Source: Cyclobacteriaceae bacterium
GTDB lineage: Bacteria > Bacteroidota > Bacteroidia > Cytophagales > Cyclobacteriaceae
Direction: 5' to 3'
NCBI GenBank assembly: GCA_009885605.1
Contig: VFKK01000053.1
Coordinates: 1 to 32,400, forward strand
DNA: 32,400 nt
Part shown: one piece after another, positions 26,369 through 31,069 of the stretch
Numbering within the stretch: position 1 is the stretch's first letter
How the letters are laid out: each line of letters begins with the position of its first letter
Translations under genes and position numbers: made by a program
The notes under the pieces: generated by a model
Told to the model about the DNA's origin: nothing
Database searches by the model: none
Seen by the model: the letters and a program-made list of their open reading frames with translations, nothing else

Positions 26369-27301
26369 TTATTTAAATCGAACGATTTTGCCGTGGGCTT
26401 TGGAGGTCATCTCAACAGGGATGGCCTCTGTTATTTCCCGGAAAAGCAATTCCACCAATTTCTGTTTCAAAAAGCTTCGGTTCAAAATGATACTGACTTC
26501 CCGTGTTGGGGACTCTCCTGCAAATGGCCTAAGGCGCGTTTTTTCTTCATCCGAAAGTTCGTAAGTCGCAAGTTCCGGCAGCAAAGTCACTCCCTGATAT
26601 CGGTTTACCATGTTCTTTAACCCTTCGAGTGATCCGCTTTCGTAGTGAAAATTCTTGTGTCCGCTGAGTGCCTGATCGCAAAGATTGATCACCTGATCCC
26701 GAAAGCAATGGCCCTGCTGGAGAATCCAAAAATCTTCCTTTTTGACTTTCTCCGGGCTGAAAAACTCATCTATAAGCAACTCATGGTCCTTTGATAAATA
26801 CGCGTAAAACTTCTCATAAAACATCGTTTTCTCTATAATCCCTGGTTCGTGAAGAGGAGTCACCACGATACCCAAATCCAGTTCATCGTTTTTGAGCTTT
26901 TTGATGATCTCTTCTGTCACCATTTCCTGGACGTCCAGCTTTACATTCGGGTATTTCTCCAGAAAATTCCGAATGAAAAGGTGAAGTAAATACGGAGCTA
27001 GGGTAGGAATAATCGCCAGTTTGATAACTCCGGAAATGTCACCTTTCAATTGAGCCACCAATTCAAAAATTCCTTTACTCTCAGAAACAACTCGCTTGGC
27101 CTGCCTGATGATTTGAATGCCGATTTCGGTCGGGATCACAGGCATTTTACTTCTGTCAAAAAGAAGAACTCCAAGTTCCTTTTCCAATTTGCCAAGTTGC
27201 GCGCTTAGCGTTGGCTGAGTCACAAAACACGATTCAGCAGCATGGCCAAAATGTCGGTGCTTATCTACCGCAATCAGATATTCGAGTTGTTGAATCGTCA
27301 T
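26369..27301 (-). CDS. oxyR: LysR-family hydrogen peroxide sensor OxyR
   Basis: MTIQQLEYLIAVDKHRHFGHAAESCFVTQPTLSAQLGKLEKELGVLLFDRSK; redox-Cys pair context LQQGHCFRDQVINLCDQ. Confidence 0.9.
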   Translation of the reverse strand: MTIQQLEYLIAVDKHRHFGHAAESCFVTQPTLSAQLGKLEKELGVLLFDRSKMPVIPTEIGIQIIRQAKRVVSESKGIFELVAQLKGDISGVIKLAIIPTLAPYLLHLFIRNFLEKYPNVKLDVQEMVTEEIIKKLKNDELDLGIVVTPLHEPGIIEKTMFYEKFYAYLSKDHELLIDEFFSPEKVKKEDFWILQQGHCFRDQVINLCDQALSGHKNFHYESGSLEGLKNMVNRYQGVTLLPELATYELSDEEKTRLRPFAGESPTREVSIILNRSFLKQKLVELLFREITEAIPVEMTSKAHGKIVRFK

Positions 27302-27483: not shown

Positions 27484-28791
27484 ATGAAAAAATCTTCTTT
27501 TTCCAGAAGGAAATTCCTTGGTGCTTCTATCCTTAGCACCGCTGGATTGAGTTTACTTCCACAACTCGGATTTGGCTCCCAGCCTGCTCAGTCTCCATCC
27601 CAATCTTTTGAAACAATCCGTCTTGGATTCATCGGAGTCGGCAGACAATCGGGAGGATTAATAAATAACCTGATGAAGGTTCCCGGTGTGGAAGTCATTG
27701 CGGGAGCAGATGTCTATGCGATCAAGCGAGAGCGCTTTATTTTGCGAGTAAAGAAAAACTACACTGATCAGGGCCGAACTGCACCCGAGATCAAAGTGTA
27801 TGAGGATTACAAGGAATTACTAGCCAATCCGGATGTGGATGCAGTAGTCATCGCTTCTCCGGATCATTGGCATGCAATGATGGCAATCAATGCCTGCAAA
27901 GCCAAGAAAGATATTTACCTGGAAAAGCCTCTCACTTTTACGATCAAAGAGGGTCAGGACCTTGTCAAAGCAGTACGAGCTAATGGAGTAGTCTTGTCAG
28001 TAGGAAGCATGCAGAGATCCGCTCCAAACTTCCAACAAGCTGCTGCGATGGTCCAAAAAGGAAAACTTGGAAAGATCAGTCAGGTCTTGGTTCACGTTGG
28101 AGAAAATCCCCATCCAAAACCTTACGACTTACCGGCACAGCCCATTCCTGCAGGTCTAAACTGGAAAACCTGGCTTGGTCCCTTACCTGAATTAGCATTC
28201 AACGACGAGCTAAATCCTGCAATAACTTTAAGTCCCGAGCAAAATGAGAAAGTTTGGGGAGCATGGAGATGGTACAAAGAGACCGGCGGAGGTTTGATGA
28301 CTGACTGGGGAGCACACATGATAGACATCGCCCAATGGGGTTTGAGCATGGATCGAAACGGTCCGGTTGAGGTTATTCCTGCTAGCGGCGATAAGCCATT
28401 GACCTATCGCTATGCAGATGGAGTTGAGATGTTGATCACAACTTTCGACGAAGGAAGACAAGGGGTGAAATTCATCGGAGAAAAGGGCTGGATCAAAGTG
28501 TCAAGAGGCCAATATGAAACTTCAATTCCAGAACTCGGACTGGAAAAAAAGCCGGAAAACTTTTCTTTTACCCAGCATTACCCGGATTTCATCGAATCAA
28601 TCAGAAGAAGAAAAGATCCGATTGTTCCGGTAGAAATAGGCCATAGTACCTGCACCATTTGTACGATTGGAAATATCGCTCACGAACTCGGACGTCCTTT
28701 GAAATGGGATCCGATCGCTCAGGTTTTTCCAGGAGATGCCGCTGCGAATGCCAAGCTGCATTATGAATACAAGAATGGATACACTTTGTAA
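27484..28791 (+). CDS. Gfo/Idh/MocA family oxidoreductase with Tat-type signal
   Basis: SRRKFLGASILSTAGLSLLP Tat motif; RLGFIGVGRQSGGLINNL; VVIASPDHWHAMMAINACKAKKDIYLEKPLTFTIKEGQ; DWGAHMIDIAQWGL. Confidence 0.93.
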   Translation: MKKSSFSRRKFLGASILSTAGLSLLPQLGFGSQPAQSPSQSFETIRLGFIGVGRQSGGLINNLMKVPGVEVIAGADVYAIKRERFILRVKKNYTDQGRTAPEIKVYEDYKELLANPDVDAVVIASPDHWHAMMAINACKAKKDIYLEKPLTFTIKEGQDLVKAVRANGVVLSVGSMQRSAPNFQQAAAMVQKGKLGKISQVLVHVGENPHPKPYDLPAQPIPAGLNWKTWLGPLPELAFNDELNPAITLSPEQNEKVWGAWRWYKETGGGLMTDWGAHMIDIAQWGLSMDRNGPVEVIPASGDKPLTYRYADGVEMLITTFDEGRQGVKFIGEKGWIKVSRGQYETSIPELGLEKKPENFSFTQHYPDFIESIRRRKDPIVPVEIGHSTCTICTIGNIAHELGRPLKWDPIAQVFPGDAAANAKLHYEYKNGYTL

Positions 28792-28926: not shown

Positions 28927-30138
28927 ATGAAACCCGTCTTTAAACTACCAATTGGTCTTTCCCTCGCCTTCGGAATTTGTCTGGTTTTCTCGGAATGTTC
29001 TCCGGGTCAGAAAGACGAAACCAAAACTTCAGAAATTTCGGAAACCAAATTCACCGCAAATCCGGTAGCTTTAACGGAACAGCCAGTCGGTAAGCTAAAT
29101 ATTGGGGATCAGGCTCCGCCATTCAATCTTCCGGATGTTGACGGTAATTTTCACACCCTGGAGGATTACGCTGATTCTGAAGTTTTTGTGATCAATTTCA
29201 CGTGCAATCACTGTCCCACTGCACAGGCATACGAAGATAGATTTATAAAACTGGTGGATGAGTACAACGGCAAAAAAGTAGCATTTGTGGCAATTTCCTC
29301 TAACAGCCCGATCGGTATTTTGCCCGAAGAATTGGGATACACTGATTTGAGCGATACCTACGACGAAATGAAAACCAGGTCTGTGGATAAGTCTTACAAC
29401 TTCCCTTATCTGTATGACGGGGATACGCATGAATTTTCACTTGCTTATGGCCCAACTGCAACTCCTCATGTTTTTGTTTTTGACAAAAGTAGGAAATTGA
29501 TCTACTCAGGCAGAATAGATGCTTCCGAAAAACCGGGAACTGCAAATGCTGAAGACTTGAAAAAAGCCATTGAAGCCGGACTAAAAGGTGAGGCTCTTCC
29601 GGCAGAGGAAGCTCAAACTCCGGCTTTCGGTTGCTCTATGAAATGGGCCTGGAAGAATGAATACACCATAAAAACCAATAAAGAGTGGGCCGCTAAAGAA
29701 GTGACCCTTGAGAAATTATCCCCGGACGGATTGGCAGACTTATTGAAAAACAATTCCGACGAGTTGCTTTTGGTGAATTTTTGGGCGACCTGGTGTGGGC
29801 CTTGCATCATTGAGTATCCTGAGTTTATTACAATCGAGCGAATGTACGGAGCGAGGGATTTCCGCTTTGTGTCGATTAGCATGGACAGTCCGGATCAGCT
29901 GGAAAAAGCCCTCAAATTCTTGAAAAGTAAAGAATCCGCTGTTCCCAATTACCTCATGGACACTAACGACAAGTATGAAGTAATCAACGTCGTGGGCAAA
30001 GAATGGGATGGAAGCTTACCAATTACTCTTTTGATTGAGCCAGGGGGAAAAATCGCATATCGCGTTCCGGGAACAATCGAGCCATTGGCCTTAAGAAAAG
30101 CAATCGTAGACCATCCGATGATTGGCAGATATTATTGA
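28927..30138 (+). CDS. Two-module thioredoxin-fold protein: N-terminal redoxin (CNHCP type) plus C-terminal TlpA-like thioredoxin
   Basis: IGDQAPPFNLPDVDGNFHTLEDYADSEVFVINFTCNHCPTAQAYEDRF...FGCSMKWAWK; then LLLVNFWATWCGPCIIEYPEFITIERMYG...PITLLIEPGGKIAYRVPG. Confidence 0.9.
   Translation: MKPVFKLPIGLSLAFGICLVFSECSPGQKDETKTSEISETKFTANPVALTEQPVGKLNIGDQAPPFNLPDVDGNFHTLEDYADSEVFVINFTCNHCPTAQAYEDRFIKLVDEYNGKKVAFVAISSNSPIGILPEELGYTDLSDTYDEMKTRSVDKSYNFPYLYDGDTHEFSLAYGPTATPHVFVFDKSRKLIYSGRIDASEKPGTANAEDLKKAIEAGLKGEALPAEEAQTPAFGCSMKWAWKNEYTIKTNKEWAAKEVTLEKLSPDGLADLLKNNSDELLLVNFWATWCGPCIIEYPEFITIERMYGARDFRFVSISMDSPDQLEKALKFLKSKESAVPNYLMDTNDKYEVINVVGKEWDGSLPITLLIEPGGKIAYRVPGTIEPLALRKAIVDHPMIGRYY
29382..29390 (-). 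other. Exact DnaA-box nonamer within CDS
   Basis: + strand TGTGGATAA = reverse complement of TTATCCACA. Confidence 0.45.
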
Positions 30139-30165
30139 TTCCGGGATTTGATGTAGGATTTATAA

Positions 30166-30190
30166 TTTGATCAATTTAAATTGTATCAAA
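30166..30190. promoter_or_regulatory. OhrR-box-like operator upstream of ohrR-ohr
   Basis: TTTGATCAATTTAAATTGTATCAAA: near-perfect palindrome (CAATTTAAATTG core, outer TTTGAT/ATCAAA, one-base asymmetry), resembling the Bacillus OhrR operator core TACAATT-AATTGTA; ends 13 nt before the ATG at 30204. Confidence 0.75.
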
Positions 30191-30203
30191 TCTAATATTC
30201 TAC

Positions 30204-30650
30204 ATGGCTGACTATAATTTCTCCGCCCTTCAACTTTCGCTATCCCTTTATTCTGCATCAAGGCTGCTTATTCAGCAGTTTCAAATCCGGTTGAATGAAC
30301 TACATCTGACCTATCCCCAGTATTTAGTGTTGTCGATTCTTTGGGAAGAGGATGGACTCTTGGTGAATAAGATCGGGCAAAAGCTGCATCTGGATTCAGG
30401 CACATTGACTCCCTTATTGAAAAAGCTGGAAGGGATGAATTATGTGAAAAGAAATCGGAACGAGGCAGATGAACGAACGGTTTCTATTCAACTTACCTAT
30501 CCAGGAAAATCTCTTCAATCCAAAACAGCCGAACTTCTAAAGCCTCTTGAAGCAGCTTTTTCAGTGATTGAAAACCCGGAGTTATCCACATTAAACCATT
30601 ACCTCAAAAGCTTGTTAGGAAACATGGAATCTTTTAAAAACAAAAATTGA
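30204..30650 (+). CDS. ohrR: MarR-family OhrR-like organic peroxide regulator lacking cysteine
   Basis: LYSASRLLIQQFQIRLNELHLTYPQYLVLSILWEEDGLLVNKIGQKLHLDSGTLTPLLKKLEGMNYVKRNRNEADERTVSIQLT is strongly OhrR-like; adjacent to ohr. Confidence 0.88.
   Translation: MADYNFSALQLSLSLYSASRLLIQQFQIRLNELHLTYPQYLVLSILWEEDGLLVNKIGQKLHLDSGTLTPLLKKLEGMNYVKRNRNEADERTVSIQLTYPGKSLQSKTAELLKPLEAAFSVIENPELSTLNHYLKSLLGNMESFKNKN
30582..30590 (+). other. Exact DnaA-box nonamer within ohrR-like CDS
   Basis: TTATCCACA on + strand. Confidence 0.45.
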
Positions 30651-31069
30651 TGGAAAAATTAATTGTGGATTACACTGCGTCAGCGGTTAATACAGGAGGC
30701 AGAAGAGGTCACGTAAAAACCGATGACGGACTAATCGATTTGGATGTGGCAATGCCAAAAGAAATTGGTGGCGAAGGCGGTAAAACAAATCCCGAGCAAC
30801 TTTTTGCAGCGGGTTACGCGGCCTGTTTTGGTGGTGCTTTGGCTTCGGCCGCAGGAAAGACCAGCTTGAGAGATTCTGAGATAAAAGTAAATGCGCACTT
30901 GGGTCATTACGGGCCAAGCAGTTTTGGCATTGCTGTCGATATTTTTGTGAAAATCCCTCACGCAGAATCTCTTGAAGCTGCTCAAAAAATAGTAGATGCA
31001 GCACATGAATCTTGTCCTTATTCAAAAGCAACTCGAGGAAATATTGAAGTCAATGTGAAGGCAGTTTAA
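30650..31069 (+). CDS. ohr: Organic hydroperoxide resistance protein (Ohr/OsmC family)
   Basis: ATG at 30650 overlaps the ohrR stop (TGATG); NPEQLFAAGYAACFGGALASAAGK and AHESCPYSKATRGNIEV contain the two catalytic Cys. Confidence 0.95.
   Translation: MEKLIVDYTASAVNTGGRRGHVKTDDGLIDLDVAMPKEIGGEGGKTNPEQLFAAGYAACFGGALASAAGKTSLRDSEIKVNAHLGHYGPSSFGIAVDIFVKIPHAESLEAAQKIVDAAHESCPYSKATRGNIEVNVKAV

Follow-up and report, generated by a model that had tools for sequence, protein, structure and literature searches.

What becomes of an OhrR-type regulator when the cysteine by which the family senses organic peroxides is gone and the ohr gene beside it is intact? This question is raised by a 148-aa MarR protein in the stretch of DNA analysed here (the window), which comprises 32,400 nucleotides of a Cyclobacteriaceae bacterium contig (VFKK01000053.1 of GenBank assembly GCA_009885605.1). 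The relevant features of the window are:

26369-27301, minus strand: OxyR, divergent to the gfo-trx-ohrR-ohr block and carrying both regulatory cysteines (GHCFRDQVINLC; C199, C208)
27484-28791, plus strand: Gfo/Idh/MocA-type oxidoreductase, a conserved neighbour
28927-30138, plus strand: two-domain AhpC/TSA and TlpA-like thioredoxin-fold protein, probably a lipoprotein, upstream of ohrR
30165-30191, no strand assigned: operator-like palindrome ATTTGATCAATTTAAATTGTATCAAAT, separated by 12 bases from the ATG of ohrR
30204-30650, plus strand: ohrR, Cys-free OhrR-type MarR regulator of 148 aa (ORF translation, homology and model)
30650-31069, plus strand: ohr, Ohr-family organic hydroperoxide reductase (NCBIfam TIGR03561), whose ATG (30650) overlaps the stop codon of ohrR

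The initial annotation described the MarR protein as free of cysteine and as carrying Ser at the sensing position, and both observations were confirmed: the translation contains no Cys, and alignment with PDB entries 1z91 and 2pex places Ser12 (codon TCG, 30237-30239) where Bacillus OhrR has its sensing Cys15 and Xanthomonas OhrR its Cys22. The reactive N-terminal Cys (Cys15 in B. subtilis), the sensing feature that defines OhrR, is missing from the window regulator. A further statement, that the other OhrR features are retained, stood only in part. The regulator keeps Tyr16 and Tyr37 (Tyr19 and Tyr40 in B. subtilis) and the DNA-binding motif; Phe26 (30279-30281) occupies the Tyr29 position, leaving the sensor tyrosines of OhrR incomplete, and Leu13, Ser14 and Leu112 stand at the positions of Phe16, Pro17 (the residue of Bacteroidota Cys OhrRs) and Pro115.

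The nearest solved relatives in the PDB comparison were the OhrRs of B. subtilis and X. campestris, and the two top matches, 1z91 and 2pex, are engineered C15S and C22S mutants with the same Ser as the regulator. The best NCBIfam model was an OhrR model, with 118.7 bits and thus below its cut-off of 200. An AlphaFold2 monomer showed a confident MarR fold (pLDDT 92.8) that resembled operator-bound OhrR most (TM 0.80-0.81) and oxidised OhrR less (0.64-0.65). Judged by sequence and model, a winged helix with the operator-contacting residues is present, as is a palindrome in the promoter. The possibility that the protein is not an OhrR orthologue was ruled out by the phylogenetic tree and the structure comparison. 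The regulator belongs to the OhrR branch by descent, fold, ohr linkage and operator, and departs from a strict OhrR in its sensing.

The product of the overlapping ohr gene matched TIGR03561 with 152.6 bits (cut-off 88.85). It keeps all of its catalytic residues, Arg18, Glu49, Cys59 (30824-30826) and Cys122 (31013-31015), in agreement with the initial annotation's remark that both catalytic cysteines are retained. The catalytic Arg, Glu, Cys and Cys were also intact in 78 of 78 relatives and in all 58 cases linked to a Cys-less regulator.

Since the window genome is a draft that is 75% complete, relatives were examined as well. The genus of the comparison set was taken as Algoriphagus (Cyclobacteriaceae), with isolates and metagenome-assembled genomes (MAGs) that included A. 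ratkowskyi DSM 22686, A. marincola DSM 16067 and A. sp. AK58; Cecembia rubra and Mongoliitalea lutea represented two related genera. Within the genus, 53 of 54 good genomes had a relative of the regulator, one of these 53 (G005) holding a broken copy. The survey for the substitution, which had been suggested at the outset, found no Cys at the sensing position in any of the 58 intact Algoriphagus proteins, window included (50 Ser, 5 Ala, 3 Thr), and 55 of them lacked Cys altogether. Their Tyr29 position is Ile, Leu, Met or Phe. Fifteen proteins of other Cyclobacteriaceae genera have Gly or Ser for the Cys and keep Tyr29. Nine ohr-linked proteins of the family retain the Cys (L040, L048, L052, L082-L085, L087, L089); the remaining 50 Cys proteins were canonical copies, mostly at other loci, and two reference OhrRs. 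Outside Cyclobacteriaceae, Cys15, Tyr29 and Tyr40 were all present in 38 of 38 sampled relatives from the order and phylum, and in 74 of 74 OhrRs from named genomes across bacteria. A search of plasmids returned nothing relevant. Sequencing or MAG error is ruled out by the 58 Cys-less intact Algoriphagus proteins, isolates among them, and a recent oddity of a single species by the genus-wide extent of the loss. The alignments point to a zero-cysteine OhrR branch that is conserved in Cyclobacteriaceae and fixed in Algoriphagus.

The Cys-free proteins nested inside the ohr-linked clade with strong support (SH-aLRT 99 in one tree and 100/99 in another), and the regulator is placed by these trees as a descendant of Cys-bearing, ohr-linked OhrRs. 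A tree of 132 rows showed one change at the Cys position. A more careful tree, with the sensor columns removed, gave two changes, or three losses if the Cys was never regained, and a single clade of non-Cys rows was compatible with the data (AU p 0.30). A single loss was not upheld as the firm count, and the phylogenies place the number of losses in Cyclobacteriaceae at one to three. The 132-row tree puts a single loss of Tyr29 at the base of Algoriphagus. The family thus includes a phylogenetic series (Cys and Tyr29; Tyr29 without Cys; neither) in which to ask how a redox sensor is rewired or retired.

Loss of the sensor was gauged against the 34 positions whose identity reaches 95% or more across 59 Cys-bearing OhrRs. 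Eight of the 34 were lost in Algoriphagus (Gln13, Cys15, Phe16, Pro17, Tyr29, Ala111, Pro115 and Arg77), compared with only Gln13, Cys15 and Pro115 in the other Cys-free genera. Arg77 is uniformly Lys in Algoriphagus; the other DNA-binding positions of the set are kept, and Thr70, Pro73, Lys76, Glu79, Arg86, Asp92, Glu93 and Arg94 are 100% conserved. Column entropy at six sensor positions was 1.71 bits in Algoriphagus versus 0.00-0.05 in Cys proteins (recognition helix 0.24); it should be noted that four of these six positions were chosen after the data had been seen, and the 34-position count is the fairer statement. Between near pairs, the dN/dS of the regulator was 0.03-0.21. These patterns indicate that Algoriphagus lost the sensing Cys along with the other parts of the peroxide pocket, and that its DNA-binding domain stayed under strong constraint. 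The initial suggestion that the regulator is blind to peroxide at the thiol level is borne out, as the genus-wide Cys loss and the decay of the remaining sensing pocket make thiol-based sensing impossible. Because both the Cys and the surrounding pocket are lost, the regulator would be controlled otherwise or not at all.

An AT-rich palindrome lies directly 5' of each Algoriphagus ohrR start. Its arms vary by lineage and tend to stay symmetrical, with TTATACAGTTAAATTGTATAA in many Algoriphagus, AGGATTGGAAACAAGTAGATTGTATCCAATCCT in one group and the form listed above in the window. Pairing of the arms was 64% at the true centre versus 20-36% after shifts of one to four bases, a comparison that ignores kinship, and the true-centre value exceeded all 2000 arm shuffles, which likewise ignore relatedness. 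The site is weak in a few members, such as L058. In Cys-bearing relatives linked to ohr, a related site of the AATTGTNNACAATT type sits in the same place, and inspection by eye showed no such palindrome ahead of the canonical OhrRs encoded at other loci. With up to 3 mismatches allowed, the palindrome at 30165-30191 is the sole copy in the window genome (75% complete), and the ohrR site was also the single match in each of G071, G030, G006, G052 and G075; G037 had one extra 3-mismatch match, and G072 had no match to the pattern used. A genome-wide regulon read from the operator was rejected, as the window genome and these five single-match genomes gave only the ohrR site; control therefore looks local.

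In the Algoriphagus loci examined at long range, the block runs from a divergent oxyR through a Gfo/Idh gene, usually an AhpC/TlpA-type thioredoxin-fold gene, ohrR and ohr; some of these loci lack one gene or another. L264 has neither the Gfo/Idh nor the thioredoxin-like gene, and its ohrR adjoins oxyR. The AhpC/TSA and TlpA-like fusion (28927-30138) is unusual, and its place beside ohrR is old within the family. Canonical Cys OhrR paralogues of the family at L074-L079 and similar loci are preceded by a gene with, by eye, a glutathione peroxidase-like C-terminus, an arrangement reminiscent, again only by eye, of Pseudomonas OspR-gpx.

An ohr gene adjoins ohrR in 50 of the 58 intact Algoriphagus loci. 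Seven near-complete Algoriphagus genomes (G018, G030, G034, G052, G071, G072 and G075; L253-L259) have the regulator without ohr, and no ohr was found anywhere in them at E <= 1e-12. Many small Algoriphagus MAGs have ohr without the regulator, and in G005 (L080/L271) an ohrR broken by stop codons adjoins an intact ohr. These cases suggest that the coupling of regulator and ohr is looser than the window alone implies. The regulator seems to matter even without ohr, because L056 and L059, a pair from an ohr-less clade, still have a dN/dS of 0.03. The MAGs of 2.2-2.8 Mb (e.g., G059, L272) appear as a small-genome lineage in which ohr was kept and ohrR was lost.

Taken together, we consider it probable that the regulator, a Cys-free descendant of OhrR, is a maintained local repressor that thiol oxidation does not relieve. 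A dimer would bind the palindrome before its own start codon, would repress the ohrR-ohr unit and would not be oxidised off the DNA in the manner of OhrR. A maintained, thiol-blind local autorepressor is suggested by the invariant DNA-binding residues, the low dN/dS and the palindrome before the start. In Chromobacterium, the OhrR mutant C21S binds DNA and ignores peroxide, and its cells behave like an ohrA-null strain (PMC3469484). Since C21S resembles the ohrA-null state, yet the residues for Ohr catalysis are intact in every Cys-less-linked case, a tight constitutive repressor is unlikely; we infer a weak or otherwise relieved repressor, because a tight blind one would make ohr useless. The leading idea for induction is that repression is eased by a signal that needs no thiol, probably a small-molecule ligand of a remodelled MarR dimer-interface pocket. 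This step is argued from the point that an ohr gene shut for good should have been lost, and we regard it as a serious possibility that stops short of likely. That the zero-Cys subfamily is a thiol switch converted back to a ligand-operated MarR switch, still in charge of the peroxidase and sensing for example a lipid-peroxide product in place of the peroxide, is a more tentative idea and on balance unlikely.

The nearest alternative is that the blind regulator sets only the basal level of ohr and any peroxide input comes through other factors, such as OxyR; we give it appreciable weight and lean somewhat against it. In its explicit form, which we hold to be possible in the same limited degree, the regulator would be a weak autorepressor that sets a floor, and the divergent OxyR would induce the gfo-trx-ohrR-ohr block. 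A two-Cys OxyR lies immediately upstream of the block in all 15 Algoriphagus loci examined at long range, the window included, and no adjacent OxyR was found in those other Cys-less genera that were examined, which also retain Tyr29. In G059 (L272), from which ohrR and the thioredoxin-like gene are gone, only the Gfo/Idh gene separates oxyR from ohr. However, the association comes from a single branch of the tree, and the window OxyR lies ~2.9 kb and two genes from ohrR. Moreover, OxyR senses chiefly H2O2, which speaks against such a hand-over. The broken ohrR of G005, the small MAGs that keep ohr without it and the drift of the sensor face (1.71 bits vs 0.00-0.05) would all suit a relic left after the Cys loss, with ohr in effect unregulated. 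Such decay is nevertheless quite unlikely given the dN/dS of 0.03-0.21, low even in the clade without ohr, the invariant DNA-binding residues, an operator whose symmetry is kept through sequence change, and the presence of a relative in nearly all good genomes.

Two further routes would leave peroxide sensing in place. Peroxide could still be sensed through another oxidisable residue (Met or Tyr) or a metal, in keeping with the invariance of Tyr19 and Tyr40. Against this, 55 of the 58 proteins have no Cys at all, Tyr29 and Phe16 are lost, and no new invariant Met, His or Cys was seen in the column table of the regulator alignment, so that we judge the idea very unlikely. A Cys-bearing OhrR paralogue might instead sense peroxide and act through the Cys-free protein by a heterodimer or a shared operator, and canonical Cys OhrRs do occur elsewhere in, for example, G002, G015, G024, G025, G052, G072 and G075. 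This is highly improbable, as about 50 Algoriphagus genomes, including the 75%-complete window genome, have only the Cys-free protein at E <= 1e-15, and the canonical copies sit at other loci where the palindrome was not seen by eye.

The reading of a maintained, thiol-blind local repressor has consequences for annotation and for the family. A natural Cys-to-Ser state across a genus, beside an intact ohr, means that a regulator can persist without its defining chemistry, and such proteins should not be annotated as organic-peroxide sensors. In the literature searched, which most subscription papers lay outside, we found no natural Cys-less, ohr-linked OhrR and no work on ohr in Algoriphagus.

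Among known systems, the 1-Cys OhrR of B. subtilis (PDB 1z91, 1z9c) is of the same family (E 1.7e-26) and fold (TM 0.80-0.81), and shares with the regulator its DNA-binding residues, ohr linkage and an AT-rich palindromic operator. The Algoriphagus palindrome is near the OhrR operator core AATT-N-AATT (PMC3469484). The regulator differs from the B. subtilis protein in lacking the sensing Cys, Tyr29, Phe16 and Pro115, and with them any thiol sensing. The 2-Cys OhrRs of X. campestris and C. violaceum are likewise MarR-type repressors of ohr, but both of their redox cysteines are absent here; the Ser engineered into them as C22S and C21S is the natural residue of the regulator, and whereas C21S is uninducible, the Ser state in Algoriphagus is natural and maintained. 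The ligand-responsive regulators CouR and MTH313 share the MarR fold and the dimer-interface pocket and respond to small molecules without thiol chemistry, but they have other target genes, and the regulator is clearly closest to OhrR in sequence. OsbR of C. violaceum is also a MarR protein that controls the ohr system, and none of its Cys residues aligns with the one by which OhrR senses peroxide (PMC8567585). It is only distantly related, has two cysteines at other positions, dimerises in an oxidation-dependent way and works in that species beside a normal OhrR (PMC8567585). The OhrR family has been divided into 1-Cys and 2-Cys types (PMC6306002), and the Algoriphagus regulator is a 0-Cys OhrR variant beside them.
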